Shown: positions 8,612-60,331 of the stretch, piece by piece | Layout of the letters: the number at the start of each line of letters is the position of its first letter | Position numbering within the stretch: the stretch's first letter is position 1 | From: Lysobacter enzymogenes | GTDB lineage: Bacteria > Pseudomonadota > Gammaproteobacteria > Xanthomonadales > Xanthomonadaceae | Direction of reading: 5' to 3' | Assembly: GCF_900106525.1 (NCBI RefSeq) | Contig: NZ_FNOG01000002.1 | Span: 186,001 to 250,000 of the forward strand | DNA: 64,000 nt | Notes under the pieces: model-generated | The model's database searches: none | What the model saw: only the letters and a program-made list of their open reading frames with translations | Told to the model about the DNA's origin: nothing | Made by a program: the position numbers and the translations under genes

Positions 8612-8955
8612 GCGCCGCGACCGGCTGCCCCGCGGTCGCAGCTTGCGCAGCTCCTACAGTCGGAAACGAAGCTACGGCCCCGCCCTGTAGGAGCGGCGCG
8701 AGCCGCGACCGCGACACCGCGCCTACGACGCGACCGGCTACCCCACGGTCGCAGCTTGCGCAGTTCCTACAGTCGCAAACGAAACCACGGCCGCCCCCTG
8801 TAGGAGCGGCGCGAGCCGCGACCGCGACACCGCGCCTAAGACGCGACCGGCTGCCCCGCGGTCGCAGCTCGTGCAGCTCCTACAGTCGGAAACGAAACCA
8901 CGGCCGCCCCCTGTAGGAGCGGCGCGAGCCGCGACCGCGACACCGCGATCACGAC
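8612..8955. repeat. Array of dispersed palindromic repeat, period 113 bp
   Basis: Three units carry an inward and an outward copy of the main dispersed repeat of this window. The marker CTCCTACAG (TTCCTACAG in the second unit) occurs at 8651, 8764 and 8877, exactly 113 bases apart. Each unit also ends in CTGTAGGAGCGGCGCGAGCC. No gene is supported in the 448-base gap that holds this array. Confidence 0.85.
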
Positions 8956-8980
8956 GCAACCCGCCTCGCGCGAGCCCGGC

Positions 8981-20549: not shown

Positions 20550-22691
20550 TCAGGGCGACGGCGGCGCAGCCGGCGCCGGGAGCGAAAGCGCGCGCTCCCA
20601 GCGCCGGCGCTCTTCGTTTTCCAGCGCCAGCAATTGCTCCGGCGAACCGCCGCCGGCCACGACCTGAAGGTCTTGCAATTGCTTTTGCACCGACGGCAGG
20701 GCCAGCACCTGGGCCACCGCTTCCTGCAGCTTGCGGTTGGACGCGGCCTGCGAATTTTCCGGCGCCCACAGGCTGAACCGGTCGTAGGCGGTGAAGCCGG
20801 CCAGTGCGGCATTGGATGCCAGCGTAGGCCACACCGCGCCATCGAAGCGCTGCGGATGCGCCGGCTCGGCCGCGGTTCCCAGCACCCGCAGCTGGCCGCG
20901 CCGCACCGCCGTCGCCACGCCGTTCACCGGCGCGAACAGCAACTGCGCCGCGTGCTGCTTGGTGATGACGTCCGAGTCGGGGTACATGCCCGCGACCACC
21001 ACGCGCTGCACATCGACGCCGCTCAACGCGCGGAACTGACCGAAGGCGAGGTGCCCGGTCCAACCGTCGTCGCCGGTCGCGATGCGCAGCGCGCCAGGAT
21101 GGGCGCGCGCGTAGTCGAGCAGATCGTCGATGTCGCCGATGCCCAACGCATCGGCCTGCGCGCTGTCGATCGCCAACACCTGCGGCTGCGACGCCAGCAG
21201 GGCGACCGGGCGCAGGGCATGCATCAGTTGGTCGATGTCCGGGCCCTTGTGCACGCCGGCGATGCCTCCGCGCGGCAGCCGCAGCGCGGCCAGCAGGGCC
21301 GTCGCCGTTCCGCCCTGCGTCATCAGTCGGCGGTAGTCGTCCTGCGTCGCCTGGGGCACGTAGTCGACCTGCACCTCGCGCCCGAGCAGCCTGGGCAGAT
21401 GCTGGGCCAGCAGTTCGGCGTAGTAGCCGCTGCGGCCGCCCGGCGGAACCAGCACGGCGATGTGGAACACGTACTCCGGCATCGGCGCGAGCCATTGCCC
21501 GGCATCGTTCAACACGCCGTAGCGCAGCGCCCACTGTCCGCCCGTGGACGCGTTGCGCACCATCGCTTCGGCCACCCAGTGCCGGCCCGAGCGCTGGATG
21601 CTGCGCAGGATCGGGCGGCTGTCCTGCCAACCGGGCGGGCGCCACTGCTGCGGATACGGCCCCGAGACCACCGCATAGCCATGCCGGAATGCGCGCGCCT
21701 GCTGGAACTGCGGCGCGATCGCCCAGCGGCCGCTCGCGTCCTGGTAGCCCCAGCGGCCGCTGTCCGGGTCCTGGACCGGCCGCGGGGGCGTGCCGGCCGC
21801 GCCGCCGCGCAGGCGTTGCCAGCGGCAGGCGCGCGGCGTGTCGGCGCTGAGCCGCCGGTCCTGGCCGGCGGCGGTGCACAGGCGGATGCGGCGCGGCCCG
21901 GCCGCGTCGGGCAGTTCGGAGAAGAGGAAGGGGATCACCGTGCGTCCCTGCGCGTCGATGAGGCCCAGCGCGGTGGAGCCGGCAGGAACCGGCTCCTGGC
22001 GGCCGCGCATCCATTGCGCCGTGGCGATGTCGCGCACCGGCGCGGGCGTGCGCCAGTGCCCCTGCGCATCGCGCAAGCCGGGCTGCCCCAGCACCGTTTC
22101 CACCTGCAGGCCGGACTCGGTGGGCGCGGGTTCGCCGGCCATCGGGTAGGACAGCGCAGCCGGCGCGTCGGTCGATACCGTGTCTTCGCCCGCGCAGGTC
22201 TTGGGCGGCACGGCCCATCGGCCCTGGGCATCGACGCGCCCGTAGGCCTGGGTGGTGCGTTGCGCGCCATCGGGCCCGCGCTCGACCAGCCACACCTTGA
22301 GCTCGGGCTGCAGCGCGGCGTTGATGCCGATCCGCTCCAGCCGCACGACCCGCCAGCGACCGTCGCAGAAGCTGCGCGCCGTCGGCGCGAGGAACAGCGC
22401 GCGGCCCTCGAGCGTGTCGAACAGCGCCGGCGAGCGCTCGGCGTTGTCGCCGGGATTGAGGCTCAACCAGCGCGACCGCGCCACCAATTCCGGCGCCATC
22501 CCGAGGGTGAAGGCGAAGACGTCCTCCCACGGCGGCGCGTCCGGGTCCACCGGCCGAAGCTGCCACACCGGCTGCATGGGCAGCGCGTCGGGATCGGCGC
22601 GCAGATCGTCGTAGCTCGGCGCCGCGGCCTGGGCCGGCGGGAAGACGGCGCCGAACCACAGCAGGACGGCGAACAGATGCAGGCGCTTCAT
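20550..22691 (-). CDS. WG-repeat protein fused to a Bug-type (TctC-like) solute-binding domain
   Basis: The 713-residue exported protein has a signal peptide (about 1-22). The N-terminal half (about 30-400) is a WG-repeat-like beta region; the clearest repeat is WGYQDASGRWAIAPQFQQA near 315. The C-terminal part (about 405-700) resembles Bug/TctC tripartite tricarboxylate binding proteins: VLVPPGGRSGYYAELLAQHL, then a middle with WTGHLAFGQF and VVVAGMYPDSDV, then helices with VQKQL. Bug proteins usually stand alone at about 320 residues. No TctA/TctB transporter genes are nearby. The ATG at 22691 was chosen because AAGGAGG lies 12 bases ahead; the ATG at 22703 would touch that site. Confidence 0.75.
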   Translation of the reverse strand: MKRLHLFAVLLWFGAVFPPAQAAAPSYDDLRADPDALPMQPVWQLRPVDPDAPPWEDVFAFTLGMAPELVARSRWLSLNPGDNAERSPALFDTLEGRALFLAPTARSFCDGRWRVVRLERIGINAALQPELKVWLVERGPDGAQRTTQAYGRVDAQGRWAVPPKTCAGEDTVSTDAPAALSYPMAGEPAPTESGLQVETVLGQPGLRDAQGHWRTPAPVRDIATAQWMRGRQEPVPAGSTALGLIDAQGRTVIPFLFSELPDAAGPRRIRLCTAAGQDRRLSADTPRACRWQRLRGGAAGTPPRPVQDPDSGRWGYQDASGRWAIAPQFQQARAFRHGYAVVSGPYPQQWRPPGWQDSRPILRSIQRSGRHWVAEAMVRNASTGGQWALRYGVLNDAGQWLAPMPEYVFHIAVLVPPGGRSGYYAELLAQHLPRLLGREVQVDYVPQATQDDYRRLMTQGGTATALLAALRLPRGGIAGVHKGPDIDQLMHALRPVALLASQPQVLAIDSAQADALGIGDIDDLLDYARAHPGALRIATGDDGWTGHLAFGQFRALSGVDVQRVVVAGMYPDSDVITKQHAAQLLFAPVNGVATAVRRGQLRVLGTAAEPAHPQRFDGAVWPTLASNAALAGFTAYDRFSLWAPENSQAASNRKLQEAVAQVLALPSVQKQLQDLQVVAGGGSPEQLLALENEERRRWERALSLPAPAAPPSP

Positions 22692-22912
22692 GGGATGGCG
22701 CATCCTCCTTGACGAACTTCTAGCGCTTCCAGCGTAAGCGCAAAACGGCATCGTGCCTCGACGGCAGCGTAGGCGCTGGCGCCGGAGAAAGACAGCCGGG
22801 CCGCGGGGGTGCTCGGGTTTCCCTGCCTGCCGTCGTTCCGGCGAAGGCCGCGGTCCACCCGCCCCCGGCTTCGGTTTCGGCCGTGAGCTTTCCGCCCCGC
22901 GCTCGCTCAGCC

Positions 22913-23733
22913 CTGGACAAAAATCAGCCACTCCGTCGGGGCTCGCTTCCGCACGTTCGCCCACGGCGATGCGGGTAGCGATCGGGCCCAAGCGCGCCCG
23001 GAACCTGCGACTTACGGCGCGTCCACGATGCCCGCTGCGATTTCCACCGCTGGACATTTTTTGTCCAAACCGCCGAAACCCTTGCAGCGCAAGGCGTGGA
23101 ACCCGATTCCACAGCCGCTGTCCGCAACCTTGTCCACAGCGTGTGTGGATAGCCGCGCGCTCGCGGCCTGCCTGCGAAGCCCGGGCTAGGCGATGAGCGT
23201 GGTGGCGTCAAGCCGTCGCGATTTTCGCCGGTTTCGGCGGCTGGCTAAAATTTAGCCAAACTTGCGCAGGCCTTGTCGCATAAGGCGTGAAACCCGATTC
23301 AACGCAGAGTGTCCGCAAGTTTGTCCACAGGCGATGTGGATAGCGCAGTGCTGAAAAACCCGCGGCCGAGCGCATGCGCGGCCGGGCGCGATGCGATCCA
23401 CGCTGGATTTCCAGCCTTTCCCCAGCCTGGACAAAAAATAGCCAAACTCGCGAAAGCCCCGCCGCATAAGGCGTGAAACCCGATTCCACGGCAACTGTCC
23501 GCATGTTTGTCCACAGCGCGTGTGGATAGCGCAGCGGCGTCGCGCAGGCTGCGAAACCTGGGAACGCGCCGGCGTGGAACGCGTGAAACTGCCGTGCAGA
23601 GCCAAGTCGGCGCGCTTATCCAGCGCCTGGACAAAAAATGACCAATTTCGCGAAAGCCTTGCGGCGCAAGGCGTGGAACCCGATTCCACGGCGTCTGTCC
23701 GCATGTTTGTCCACAGGCGCTGTGGAAATCGTT
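22913..23733. repeat. Tandem structured repeat, four units plus a decayed copy, with DnaA-box-like inverted pairs
   Basis: Four units of about 107 bases start at 23051, 23241, 23427 and 23627 (spacing 190, 186 and 200), and a shortened copy spans 22913-22981. Each full unit has, in order: a hairpin of the TGGAC...GTCCA kind, a CTTGC/GCAAG-type stem, the block GGCGTGRAACCCGATTC with its partner, CTGTCCGCA or GTGTCCGCA, and a terminal pair TTGTCCACA and TGTGGATA. The first stem covaries: TGGACA/TGTCCA in unit 1 and TGGCTAAA/TTTAGCCA in unit 2. The 1.2-kb gap has no supported gene. Non-repeat spacers differ, so selection acts on the 107-base core. The role is unknown. Confidence 0.85.
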
Positions 23734-23787
23734 GCGGCGGGCGAAGCGACAGCACCGGCAAAGCCGGTGCGCGATGCGACGAAGCCG

Positions 23788-23876
23788 CTGTAGGAGCGAC
23801 GCGAGTCGCGACCGCGACACCGCGCTGACGAGGCAACCGGCTACCCCGCGGTCGCGGCTCGCGCCGCTCCTACAGG
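23788..23876. repeat. Inverted pair of the main dispersed repeat
   Basis: CTGTAGGAGCGACGCGAGTC begins at 23788, and the facing copy ends with GCTCCTACAG at 23876. The left copy has the A-T form of the hairpin stem and the right copy the G-C form. Confidence 0.8.
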
Positions 23877-23917
23877 AAGCTGCGGATCGCGCGCGCAGCT
23901 TCGCCGCTTCGGCGAAA

Positions 23918-24370
23918 TCAGAACGGCTTGGCCAGCACCAGCCAAACGATCGCGATCAGGGCCACCAGCGGCAGTTCGTTGAACCAGCGCAACGTGCGCG
24001 AGGACGGCAGCGCGCGGCCCTTGTCCAGGCCTTTGAGCCAGCGGCCGGTGAAGATGTAGTAGGCCAGCAGCACCGCGACCAAGGTCAGCTTGACGTGCAG
24101 CCAGCCGCCGACGGCGAACATCTGCGGCAGGCCGTCGCCGAACACGCGGTAGCCCTGCCACATCAGCAGGCCGCAGACGAAGGCCAGGCCGAACATGACG
24201 TGGCCGAAGCGGTAGAGCTTGCGGCCCATCAGCAGCAGCCGCGCGCGCACCGCCGGTTCGCCCTGGGCCTCGGCGAGGTTGACCAGGATCCGCGGCAGGT
24301 AGAAGACCGAGGCCATCCAGGCGATCACGAACACGATATGGAAGGTCTTGGTCCACAGATAGGCGTTCAT
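23918..24370 (-). CDS. hemJ: HemJ-like protoporphyrinogen oxidase / CopD family membrane protein
   Basis: This 150-residue protein has four transmembrane helices. It begins MNAYLWTKTFHIVFVIAW with a His at 11, followed by YLPRILV, and ends with RWFNELPLVALIAIVWLVLAKPF-like sequence, all typical of HemJ (UPF0093). HemJ oxidises protoporphyrinogen IX to protoporphyrin IX in the membrane during heme synthesis. The conserved central segment GGWLHVKLTL is also present. No other heme gene is close. The gene is divergent from a methyltransferase gene. An alternative is a generic CopD-family protein. Confidence 0.75.
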   Translation of the reverse strand: MNAYLWTKTFHIVFVIAWMASVFYLPRILVNLAEAQGEPAVRARLLLMGRKLYRFGHVMFGLAFVCGLLMWQGYRVFGDGLPQMFAVGGWLHVKLTLVAVLLAYYIFTGRWLKGLDKGRALPSSRTLRWFNELPLVALIAIVWLVLAKPF

Positions 24371-25309: not shown

Positions 25310-25492
25310 CGGTCGCGGCTCGCGCCGCTCCTACAGGGAGTGGCCGCGGCTTCGATCCCGACTGTAGGAGCTGCGCAAGCTGCGACCGCGGAGCTGCCGC
25401 TCGCGCCGCAAGCGCGGTGGTACAGGGAGTGGCCGCGGCTTCGATCCCGACTGTAGGAGCTGCGCAAGCTGCGACCGCGGAGTAGCCGGTCG
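25310..25492. repeat. Repeat array, period 89 bp
   Basis: A 62-base block beginning TACAGGGAGTGGCCGCGGCT occurs at 25332 and again at 25421, 89 bases apart, containing the GAGCTGCGCAAGCTGC form of the main repeat. An inward G-C copy precedes it. The gap of 399 bases between the methyltransferase and PHA depolymerase genes has no supported gene. Confidence 0.8.
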
Positions 25493-25659
25493 CGCCGCAA
25501 GCCACGCCCCGGGCAAGTCTCAGCCCCGATCGCGACCGGAATCCCCCGCTTCACGCGACCGCCATCCCAATCCGCTATGCTGCGCCGCAGCAAACCGCAC
25601 GTCCCGGAAGCGTTTACGCTCCCGCGCCAGCCCTGCCCGCCACAGAGAGTCCGACCCGA

Positions 25660-40862: not shown

Positions 40863-40879
40863 GTTTCTGCGCCCGGCCC

Positions 40880-41628
40880 GAATGCGGGTTCGACGCGACC
40901 GGCCACCCCGCGGTCGCGACTCGCGTCGCTCCTACAGTCGCCTCCGGCCGCTTCCGCATCTCGCCCGAAGCTCCCTGTAGGAGCGACGCAAGTCGCGACC
41001 GCGACAACGCAACTACGACGCAACCCACGGCGGCCCGCGCAGCATCACGCCCGAATGCGGTTTCGACGCGACCAGCCACCCCGCGGTCGCGACTCGCGTC
41101 GCTCCTACAGTCGCCTCCGTCCGCTTCCGCATATCGCCCGAAGCCCCTGTAGGAGCGACGCGAGTCGCGACCGCGACAACGCAACTACGACGCAACCCAC
41201 GGCGGCCCGTGCAGCGTCACGCCCGAATGCGGTTTCGACGCGACCAGCCGCCCCGCGGTCGCGACTCGCGTCGCTCCTACAGTCGCCTCCGTCCGCTTCC
41301 GCATCTCGCCCGAAGCCCCTGTAGGAGCGACGCAAGTCGCGACGCGACAACGCAACTACGACGCAACCCACGGCGGCCCGCGCAGCATCACGCCCGAATG
41401 CGGTTTCGACGCAATCGGTCGCCCCGCGGTCGCGACTCGCGTCGCTCCTACAGTCGCCTCCGTCCGCTTCCGTATCTCGCCCGAACCTCCCTGTAGGAGC
41501 GACGCAAGTCGCGACCGCGACAACGCAACTACGACACAACCCACCGCGGCCCGCGCAGCATCACGCCCGAACGCGGTTTCGACGCGGCCGGCCACACCGC
41601 GGTCGCGACTCGCGTCGCTCCTACAAGG
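40880..41628. repeat. Tandem array of the main dispersed repeat, period about 172 bp
   Basis: The marker GAATGCGG occurs at 40880, 41053, 41225 and 41396, and its variant GAACGCGG at 41569: four full units and a partial fifth. Each unit holds one inward copy (ending CTCCTACAG) and one outward copy (CTGTAGGAGCGACGCAAGTC or GCGAGTC). Units differ by few bases. No gene is supported in this 839-base gap. Confidence 0.92.
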
Positions 41629-52014: not shown

Positions 52015-52046
52015 TCCCGCCACTCGCGCATCGGTCGCCGCAATCG

Positions 52047-52710
52047 CTCCTACAGGGGGCCATCGGTTCGAACGCCGATATCCGCGCTGCTACGGCCGCT
52101 CCCTGTAGGAGCGGCGCGAGCCGCGACCGCGCTGTTTCGATTCGCGGCGCAAGCCCGATGTCGGCAACGCCGCTGCGGCCGACAGGTCGCGCGGCGCGTG
52201 TCGATCCTTGCGAGCACAGGCTGACGTCGTAACTGCAGTTTCGCGGTCGCGACTCGCGTCGCTCCTACAGGGGGCCATCGGGTCGAACGCCGACATCCGC
52301 GCCGTCACGATCGCTCCCTGTAGGAGCGACGCGAGTCGCGACCGCGCTGTTTCGATTCGCGGCGTGAGCCCGATGTCGGGAACGCCGCTGCAGACGACGA
52401 GTCGTGGGACGCGTGTCGATGCTCGCGCACGCAAGCTGGCGTCGTAACTGCGGCTTCGCGGTCGCGACTTGCGTCGCTCCTACAGGGGGTCATCCGGTTG
52501 AACGCCGACATCCGCGCCGTCACGACCACTCCCTGTAGGAGCGACGCGAGTCGCGACCGCGCTGTTTCGATTCGCGGCGTGAGCCCGATGTCGGGAACGC
52601 CGCTGCAGACGACGAGTCGCGGGACGCGTGTCGATGCTCGCGCACGCAAGCTGACGTCGTAGCTGCGGCCTCGCGGTCGCGACTTGCGTCGCTCCTACAG
52701 GGGGCGGCCG
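52047..52710. repeat. Tandem repeat array with an exact 215-bp period
   Basis: CTCCTACAGGGGG occurs at 52047, 52262, 52477 and 52692, exactly 215 bases apart, giving three full units and a start of a fourth. Each unit contains an outward main-repeat copy (CTGTAGGAG...) and a unique spacer of about 130 bases that is also conserved between units (for example CTGTTTCGATTCGCGGC). The first unit has the G-C stem form, the others the A-T form. There is no supported gene in the 940-base gap. Confidence 0.93.
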
Positions 52711-59135: not shown

Positions 59136-60020
59136 ATGGCCTTGCGAGCGGACTGGCTTCCGGCCCTGGCGGCGTTCGAAGCGGCGGCGCGCCACCAGAA
59201 TTTCGCCCACGCCGCCGAAGAGCTGCACCTCACCGCCAGCGCGGTCAGCCACCACGTGCGCAAGCTCGAAAGCCGGCTCGGGGTGAGCCTGTTCCAGCGC
59301 CATGCGCGCGGGGTCGCGCTGACCGCGCAGGGCCGCCAGTTGGCCGACGCCGCCGGCACTGCGCTGGCCGACGTCGACGGCGTGCTGCGCAGCCTGCGCC
59401 TGGCGCGCGATGAGCGCGACCGGGTACGCATCACCACCCTGCACTCGCTGGCCTACACCTGGTTGCTGCCGCGGCTGCCCGAGTTCACCCGCGAGCACCC
59501 CCACATCCAGCTCAGCGTCGACACCGAGATCGCCCTGACCCGCTTCGACGACGGCGGCCCGGACCTCGGCATCCGCCACGGCGCCGGCCACTGGCCCGGG
59601 CTGACCGCGCATTTGCTGATGGAAGACGCGCTGTTCCCGGTGACCTCTCCGCATACGCCCGGCGCGCAGGCCATCGTCGAGGCGGCGCAGATCGCCGAAC
59701 TGCCGCTGATCGCCGACCACGCCCGCCAGGGCTGGCACGATTGGTTCCGCGCCGCCGGCGTGCACGGGCGCAAGCTGGAAGAGCGCTACACTTTCTCCGA
59801 CACCACCGACGCGCTGATGGCCGCCGCCCACGGCCTGGGCGCGGCGCTGGCACGCGAGCAGATCGTCGTGCCCTACCTGCGCTCGGGCCAGCTGATGCGC
59901 CTGCCGGGCCCGAAAATGGCGGCGCGCTGGGCCTATTACGCGATCTACCCCGCGCACCGCCGCCTGCGCCCGGCTGCGCGGACGTTCCTGGAGTGGTTGC
60001 TGGCCGTGCAGAAAGATTGA
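59136..60020 (+). CDS. LysR family transcriptional regulator (GcvA-like)
   Basis: The 294-residue regulator has a winged helix (about 8-65; RHQNFAHAAEELHLTASAVSHHVRKLE) and an effector domain (about 90-290). The opening LPALAAFEAAARHQNF is typical of the GcvA/AmpR-like branch. It is divergent from the cupin gene and may control it and the nearby DMT exporter. A repeat pair follows the stop. Confidence 0.94.
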   Translation: MALRADWLPALAAFEAAARHQNFAHAAEELHLTASAVSHHVRKLESRLGVSLFQRHARGVALTAQGRQLADAAGTALADVDGVLRSLRLARDERDRVRITTLHSLAYTWLLPRLPEFTREHPHIQLSVDTEIALTRFDDGGPDLGIRHGAGHWPGLTAHLLMEDALFPVTSPHTPGAQAIVEAAQIAELPLIADHARQGWHDWFRAAGVHGRKLEERYTFSDTTDALMAAAHGLGAALAREQIVVPYLRSGQLMRLPGPKMAARWAYYAIYPAHRRLRPAARTFLEWLLAVQKD

Positions 60021-60046
60021 GCCGCCGCGTAGCCGCGGTTCACTAC

Positions 60047-60320
60047 CTGTAGGAGCGGCGCGAGCCGCGACCGCGGCAACGCAACTGCGCCGAAACTTTC
60101 GCAACAAGCGAGGTGGCGCGGTCGCAGCTTGCGCAGCTCCTACAGTCGGAAACCCACTTCCGCTGCGGGCTTGCGGCTCTTCAACAAGCCGCCGCGCAGC
60201 CGCGGTTTACTACCTGTAGGAGCGGCGCGAGCCGCGACCGCGGCAACGCAACTACGCCGAAACTTTCGCAACAAGCGCGGTGTCGCGGTCGCAGCTCGCG
60301 CAGCTCCTACAGTCGGAAAA
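60047..60320. repeat. Main dispersed repeat, two units with period 166 bp
   Basis: CTGTAGGAGCGGCGCGAGCC occurs at 60048 and 60214, 166 bases apart, and inward copies end at about 60143 and 60310. The spacer between copies is also conserved. It fills the space between the LysR and TfoX-like genes. Confidence 0.88.
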
Positions 60321-60331
60321 CCACATCCGAC

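Follow-up and report, generated by a model that had tools for sequence, protein, structure and literature searches.

The stretch of Lysobacter enzymogenes DNA analysed here, called the window below (64,000 nucleotides, C12:186001-250000 of a 6.26-Mb genome designated G000), carries a tandem repeat in an intergenic gap beside hemJ, which raises the question of what such a repeat might do. The sequence-only reading offered three options, a tandem small RNA, a leader RNA or a DNA hairpin array recognised by a protein. Judging from its sequence, the array is probably a tandem set of modules resembling the DnaA-reactivating sequences (DARS) of Escherichia coli, which would regenerate ATP-DnaA.

The repeat array and its neighbours

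The repeat search returned one family of 126 nt, with copies at 23037, 23228, 23414 and 23614 that are 71, 75, 100 and 80% identical to the reference copy and are separated by successive spacings of 191, 186 and 200. A profile with a core of 101 columns matched the window over 23051-23728, with starts at 23051, 23242, 23428 and 23628. A blastn search found six places in the same genome (best other E value, 7.4e-45) and gave matches in 23 of 41 genomes, including all 20 genomes of the genus. The earlier description of a four-unit repeat with a core of about 107 bases was thereby borne out beyond chance, and the array comprises four units of ~107 bp plus a decayed fifth. The profile search also placed fifth units, weaker or full, upstream of the first of four in loci L053-L056. 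The gap had been called gene free; from the gene start at 22691 to the hemJ 3' terminus at 23918 it contains mechanical open reading frames only, and conservation tracks motifs that look like binding sites.

The features are listed below in window coordinates. Units were located by the repeat search and the profile and boxes by a box scan; the 15-mers fit the Fis-type motif GnnYAnnnnnTRnnC, taken from PMC8682772. hemJ scored 131 bits with Pfam UPF0093, above the cut-off, and 108 bits with TIGR00701 (HemJ), below the cut-off of 138.

20550..22691, minus: neighbouring gene encoding WG repeats and a TctC-type receptor domain; the start, picked by eye, faces the array
22912..22930, plus: fifth-unit remnant, a related 19-nt fragment of the repeat family with the Fis-type dyad alone recognisable
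23051..23152, plus: unit 1, from the dyad to DARS-type box I
23052..23066, no strand: Fis-type 15-mer, unit 1
23118..23126, plus: box III, unit 1 (CTGTCCGCA)
23130..23138, plus: box II, unit 1 (TTGTCCACA)
23144..23152, minus: box I, unit 1 (CTATCCACA), head-to-head with box II, 5 bp between
23242..23343, plus: unit 2
23243..23257, no strand: Fis-type 15-mer, unit 2
23309..23317, plus: box III, unit 2 (GTGTCCGCA)
23321..23329, plus: box II, unit 2
23335..23343, minus: box I, unit 2
23428..23529, plus: unit 3
23429..23443, no strand: Fis-type 15-mer, unit 3
23495..23503, plus: box III, unit 3
23507..23515, plus: box II, unit 3
23521..23529, minus: box I, unit 3
23628..23729, plus: unit 4
23629..23643, no strand: Fis-type 15-mer, unit 4
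23695..23703, plus: box III, unit 4
23707..23715, plus: box II, unit 4
23721..23729, minus: box I, unit 4 (ATTTCCACA)
23918..24370, minus: flanking gene hemJ, 3' end toward the array

A separate REP-like repeat on CTGTAGGAGCG and CGCGGTCGCG, distinct from the array units, occurs in tandem or inverted copies at 8616-8961, 23788-23875, 25332-25502, 40876-41625, 52044-52705 and 60020-60329.

Conserved sites within the units and the structured-RNA question

The profile yielded 162 matches in 25 loci of 20 genomes of the genus, this one included; 151 were on the main strand, and the 147 unique ones among these were aligned. Seventeen alignment columns exceeded 1.75 bits. Three 9-mers resembling DnaA boxes (TGTCCGCA, TTGTCCACA and TGTGGA.A) account for 13 of them, and the dyad, TGG..A/T-rich..CCA, for 3. 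Box I stands head-to-head with box II at a distance of 5 bp, and box III follows 3 bp further on, oriented like box II. Read on the opposite strand, box I is CTATCCACA in 43 of 147 units and a variant elsewhere, box II is the reverse of TTGTCCACA in 113, and box III is most commonly the reverse of CTGTCCGCA (61 units). The I-II spacing is 5 bp in 141/147 units and the II-III spacing 3 bp in 128/147; all four window units have both, and in each of them box I runs counter to the other two boxes; the spacing is kept while identity between units drops to about 0.5. Compared with the consensus TTWTNCACA, box II has a single mismatch in 126 units and at least two in the other 21; for box I the corresponding numbers are 82 and 65 units, and the commonest form of box III has three mismatches. 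All of this we counted against the DARS reading.

Sixty of the 147 units carry the strict Fis motif, where shuffling predicts 4.5, and 129 carry the relaxed form G...A.....T...C. In 46 of the 60 strict matches the 15-mer dyad starts 78 bp before box II, and all four window units carry the strict motif at about that distance. One Fis homologue is present in G000 (50% identity, E = 2.4e-19). The 87 units that fail the strict motif were also counted against the DARS reading, and because of them, and because conservation of the dyad in TGG/CCAA extends past the Fis motif, the dyad may be bound by a protein other than Fis. A search of the two arrays of this genome for IHF sites (WATCAANNNNTTR, at most one mismatch) returned none, a difference from DARS2 that was likewise counted against the DARS reading.

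In the centre of the unit, CCTTG..CAAGG and GTGGAA..TTCCAC are partly conserved (unit columns 42-73, approximately 23080-23111 in the window, and equivalents). These central 30-40 bp match none of the sites tested, which was held against the DARS reading as well, and a further protein may bind there.

The sequence-only reading had claimed covariation in the first stem and, in the second, pairing kept through a G-U change. Neither claim withstood the larger alignment. Across the 147 units, 666 of 1,029 cells of stem 1 are Watson-Crick pairs, against 682 expected from independent columns, and 648 of 882 cells of stem 2, against 637. G-T cells (79 in stem 1 and 70 in stem 2) scarcely outnumber A-C cells (76 and 64); therefore, neither strand acts like a transcribed stem. 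In the window itself, unit 3 breaks both variable pairs of stem 1 and unit 4 breaks one. Stem 3 pairs above expectation, in 415 of 731 cells against 373.

RNAalifold and shuffling tests were run on 36 hand-chosen units. RNAalifold predicted the DnaA dyad alone, with double-sided changes in none of its eight pairs. The named structure had 84.8% of cells paired compared with 83.2% after shuffling (reached by 0/500 shuffles), 22 cells changed on both sides compared with 14.3 (3/500), and a covariation score of 0.123 compared with 0.108 (3/500), although related sequences may surpass shuffles without any structure. The effect was less marked for pairs with a double-sided change (7 against 5.4; 88/500) and for pair types (35/500). 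A weak residual covariation signal persists in stem 3 and in the 36-unit shuffles. An Rfam scan of the window gave no family at gathering score, the best lax match in the region being DUF3800-IX (18.4 bits where 36.8 are required, E = 0.66). A consensus scan of 22680-23950 detected nothing promoter-like, and its single terminator-like site lies outside the array.

A reading of the units as structured small RNAs in tandem, or as leader RNAs, is barely credible on these results. The dyads could fold, and the stem 3 excess and the covariation score, reached by 3/500 shuffles, go in that direction; against this, stems 1 and 2 pair as expected by chance with G-U not favoured over A-C, RNAalifold finds no compensated pair, and the Rfam, promoter and within-array terminator scans are negative. 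The units were not assigned to a structured RNA family, compensatory changes being absent from the conserved stems 1 and 2 and leaving a weak residue in stem 3 and the shuffle test. Of the three options offered at the outset, a DNA array recognised by a protein is the best fit, with the correction that the elements look like binding sites in duplex DNA, not hairpins.

Spacing of the boxes and distribution of the loci

To ask whether the 5-bp head-to-head arrangement is more than chance, we scanned 137 kb of DNA from the same genome and found 49 boxes at no more than one mismatch from TTWTNCACA. They form nine head-to-head pairs 0 to 30 bp apart, all nine at a spacing of 5. The window and an array between folP and miaA account for four pairs each, and the ninth lies beside priA. 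When the gap was left free from 0 to 25 in a search of 60 genomes of the family, 12 matched, and the gap was 5 in all 30 of the matches listed (25 distinct sites); the reversed controls gave no match in the 60 genomes. Upstream of miaA in 55 other genomes of the family, the spacing was 5 at 20 of 23 sites. A spacing-5 pair is absent from the oriC stretch of this genome and from E. coli oriC-mioC, and the E. coli datA stretch has none, its single head-to-head pair being at spacing 3; the comparison in E. coli covered a few loci rather than the whole genome.

The free-gap search was extended to 94 genomes of Gammaproteobacteria, almost every one from a separate family, and 46 matched. By hand tally, they contain 74 distinct sites, of which 65 have a gap of 5; among the remaining nine, four have a gap of 17, which is the distance from box I to box III. 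Consensus boxes at the 5-bp head-to-head gap occur in 44 of the 94 genomes (hand tally), and the reversed control gave a match in G130 alone. Sites with head-to-head consensus boxes at exactly 5 bp number up to five per genome (G133).

The 23-base three-box pattern was found in 26 stretches of a genome collection covering 84,980 species, with records near the window's genome possibly omitted. Twenty-five are titled Lysobacter, Lysobacteraceae or Vulcaniibacterium, the last of which we take to belong to the same family as Lysobacter, and one is Paraburkholderia bannensis, an exact match at L252:4490-4520.

All 20 genomes of the genus have the folP-miaA array, with 4 to 11 main-strand units on the strand of both genes. 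In the 55 other family genomes, cores lie upstream of miaA in 11; in several of the rest miaA directly adjoins folP, and in others the stretch taken contains no folP. The hemJ-side array is present in 5/20 genomes (G000, G003, G008, G014 and G018), 56-68 kb from the folP-miaA array and in inverse orientation, and no unit was found at the hemJ loci of the other 15 with flanks of up to 1.5 kb. Units 2-4 of the G000 hemJ array are 0.88-0.95 identical to their counterparts in G008 and G018, and unit 1 is 0.76 and 0.79 identical to its counterparts; the G000 hemJ units are 0.56-0.84 identical to the folP-miaA units of the same genome. From these identities, the hemJ-side array is probably older than the split of these species.

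Full units occur at three places in this genome, according to blastn and the pattern search, the third being a single unit (L004:1433-1534, contig C6) between a hybrid sensor kinase gene and that of a LuxR-type response regulator. Outside the arrays, 31-bp matches were seen in 11/20 genomes of the genus (hand count; neighbours looked at in G000). A perfect core, TTATCCACA-5-TGTGGATAA, occurs once per genome in 20/20, with the PriA start ~0.1 kb away in every case; G018 has an additional site with a gap of 0. In G000 the priA core is at C4:131799-131821 (L132:3799-3821). A box III-like sequence, TGTGCA[TC]G[GC], lies 3 bp beyond the priA core in 19/19 loci read. Two IHF-type sites with one mismatch were noted near this core in G000.

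These distributions bear on two further explanations. One holds that the units are mobile or REP-like repeats without function, for which the second array of five genomes, displaced and inverted, and the decayed fifth unit at 22912 could speak. We consider it highly improbable, as blastn and the pattern search found full units at three places in this genome, the folP-miaA place is constant in 20/20 genomes of the genus and recurs as cores in other family genomes, and the spacing stays constant though the units diverge. The other holds that DnaA, with a Fis-like protein, regulates transcription from sites upstream of either miaA or the WG/TctC gene. That the array is upstream of miaA and shares its strand in 20/20 genomes agrees with this, whereas the module also occurs beside hemJ and between the sensor kinase and LuxR-type genes, the core occurs beside priA, the window's gap has no promoter-like site, and 4 to 11 copies would seem more than a promoter needs; this makes transcriptional control very unlikely.

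Chromosomal positions were expressed as distance from dnaA (or oriC) relative to a terminus set as the opposite point; additional contigs in G007 and G019 were ignored. On this scale the folP-miaA array sits at 0.56-0.68 in 9/10 genomes and at 0.20 in G004, the latter counted against the DARS reading. The priA core lies at 0.16-0.22 in 9/10 genomes and at 0.96 in G004. The same arithmetic gives 0.66 for DARS1, 0.41 for DARS2 and 0.20 for datA of E. coli.

Comparison with known DnaA-binding loci and a possible function

According to the review PMC5742627, the DARS core consists of three boxes whose spacings are identical between DARS1 and DARS2, and boxes II and III are oriented oppositely to box I. 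In E. coli MG1655, DARS1 reads TTATCCACT-5-TGTGGATAA-3-TGTGTATTA and DARS2 TTATTCACC-5-TGTGGATAG-3-TGTGAAGAA, with orientations as in the array units. The opposed boxes I and II are described as helping head-to-head contact of ADP-DnaA and hence ADP release (PMC8682772). By ChIP-seq, E. coli DnaA favours double boxes 2-3 bp apart (PMC11317965), the type represented by boxes II and III of the array units at 3 bp.

The array shares with DARS1 (101 bp, upstream of uvrB) the 9-5-9-3-9 layout and identical orientations. DARS1 is reported to be active in vitro without additional factors (PMC5742627), the array has no IHF site that we found, and the relative distance of DARS1 from oriC is similar to that of the folP-miaA array. 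DARS1 differs in having one core rather than a tandem array, boxes nearer the consensus and other neighbouring genes. DARS2 (455 bp, upstream of mutH) shares the core layout and CTATCCACA, which is box II in DARS2 and box I in the array; its Fis sites FBS2-3 near the core may have a counterpart in the Fis-type dyad. DARS2 differs in being a single copy, in its further DnaA boxes IV-VI and in its need for the IHF sites IBS1-2 (PMC4585315, PMC4245941); the array was not classed as DARS2 proper, no such site having been found in the two arrays of this genome at up to one mismatch. By sequence, the layout resembles DARS1 with an added Fis-type site more closely than it does DARS2. E. coli is described as having at least two DARS loci with one core each (PMC5742627, PMC4245941). 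Our search of open-licence PubMed Central found no article on DnaA-reactivating sequences or DnaA box clusters in Xanthomonas, nor on tandem intergenic repeats in Lysobacter.

oriC, which would be expected next to dnaA and to have high-affinity boxes and an unwinding element, was rejected as an identity for the array; dnaA and, downstream of it, three TTATCCACA boxes lie on another contig, C3. datA was rejected too, with its lack of a spacing-5 pair in E. coli and with no DnaA boxes flanking an IHF site in the two arrays of this genome.

The main rival to the DARS reading is that the array titrates or inactivates DnaA and so restrains initiation, like datA or the DnaA-box clusters of Bacillus subtilis, because many boxes together could bind DnaA regardless of the chemistry that follows. 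The array does offer 12 box positions in ~0.6 kb, of which 8 depart from the consensus by at most one mismatch; datA is likewise a non-coding DnaA-box cluster fairly near miaA, at ~6.5 kb (datA coordinate from PMC11317965), and the B. subtilis clusters also lie outside oriC, though by description they are titrating sites (PMC13220808, PMC5010248). However, single boxes of the array are sub-consensus, datA has no head-to-head pair at spacing 5, it depends on an IHF site according to PMC4585315 where the two arrays of this genome have none at up to one mismatch, and it is nearer oriC than the folP-miaA array is in 9/10 genomes. Titration is therefore an unlikely explanation.

ATP-DnaA regeneration remains the most likely function because the three-box geometry is that of the part of DARS which arranges DnaA for ADP release. 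By analogy with E. coli, we infer DnaA binding, ADP release, a role for the Fis-type site and a benefit of tandem copies. Two DnaA molecules would sit head-to-head on boxes I and II of each unit, with a third on box III, past box II, in the same direction as the molecule on box II. The oligomer would promote ADP release from ADP-DnaA, as described for the E. coli DARS, and the freed apo-DnaA would rebind ATP, raising ATP-DnaA ahead of the next initiation. A Fis-like protein bound ~78 bp away could bend or gate the complex, possibly linking it to the growth phase, and adjacent modules would provide a higher local dose.

The DARS three-site layout in tandem form suggests an amplified version of a known cell-cycle control element. 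More tentatively, it is quite possible that Lysobacter amplified a DnaA-reactivation module into arrays of 4 to 11 units, two arrays in some species, so that module number and chromosomal place form an evolvable dial for ATP-DnaA regeneration, and that the 5-bp head-to-head core recurs as an element of replication control across the Gammaproteobacteria. A tandem DARS form with variable copy number would be a natural test of DARS dose against initiation timing, and the fixed 5-bp head-to-head signature may offer a simple search handle for similar sites elsewhere.

Ten of the 11 opposite-strand profile matches overlap the last two units before miaA (L034-L040 and L046-L048), so that this pair of units may make up a larger inverted structure.
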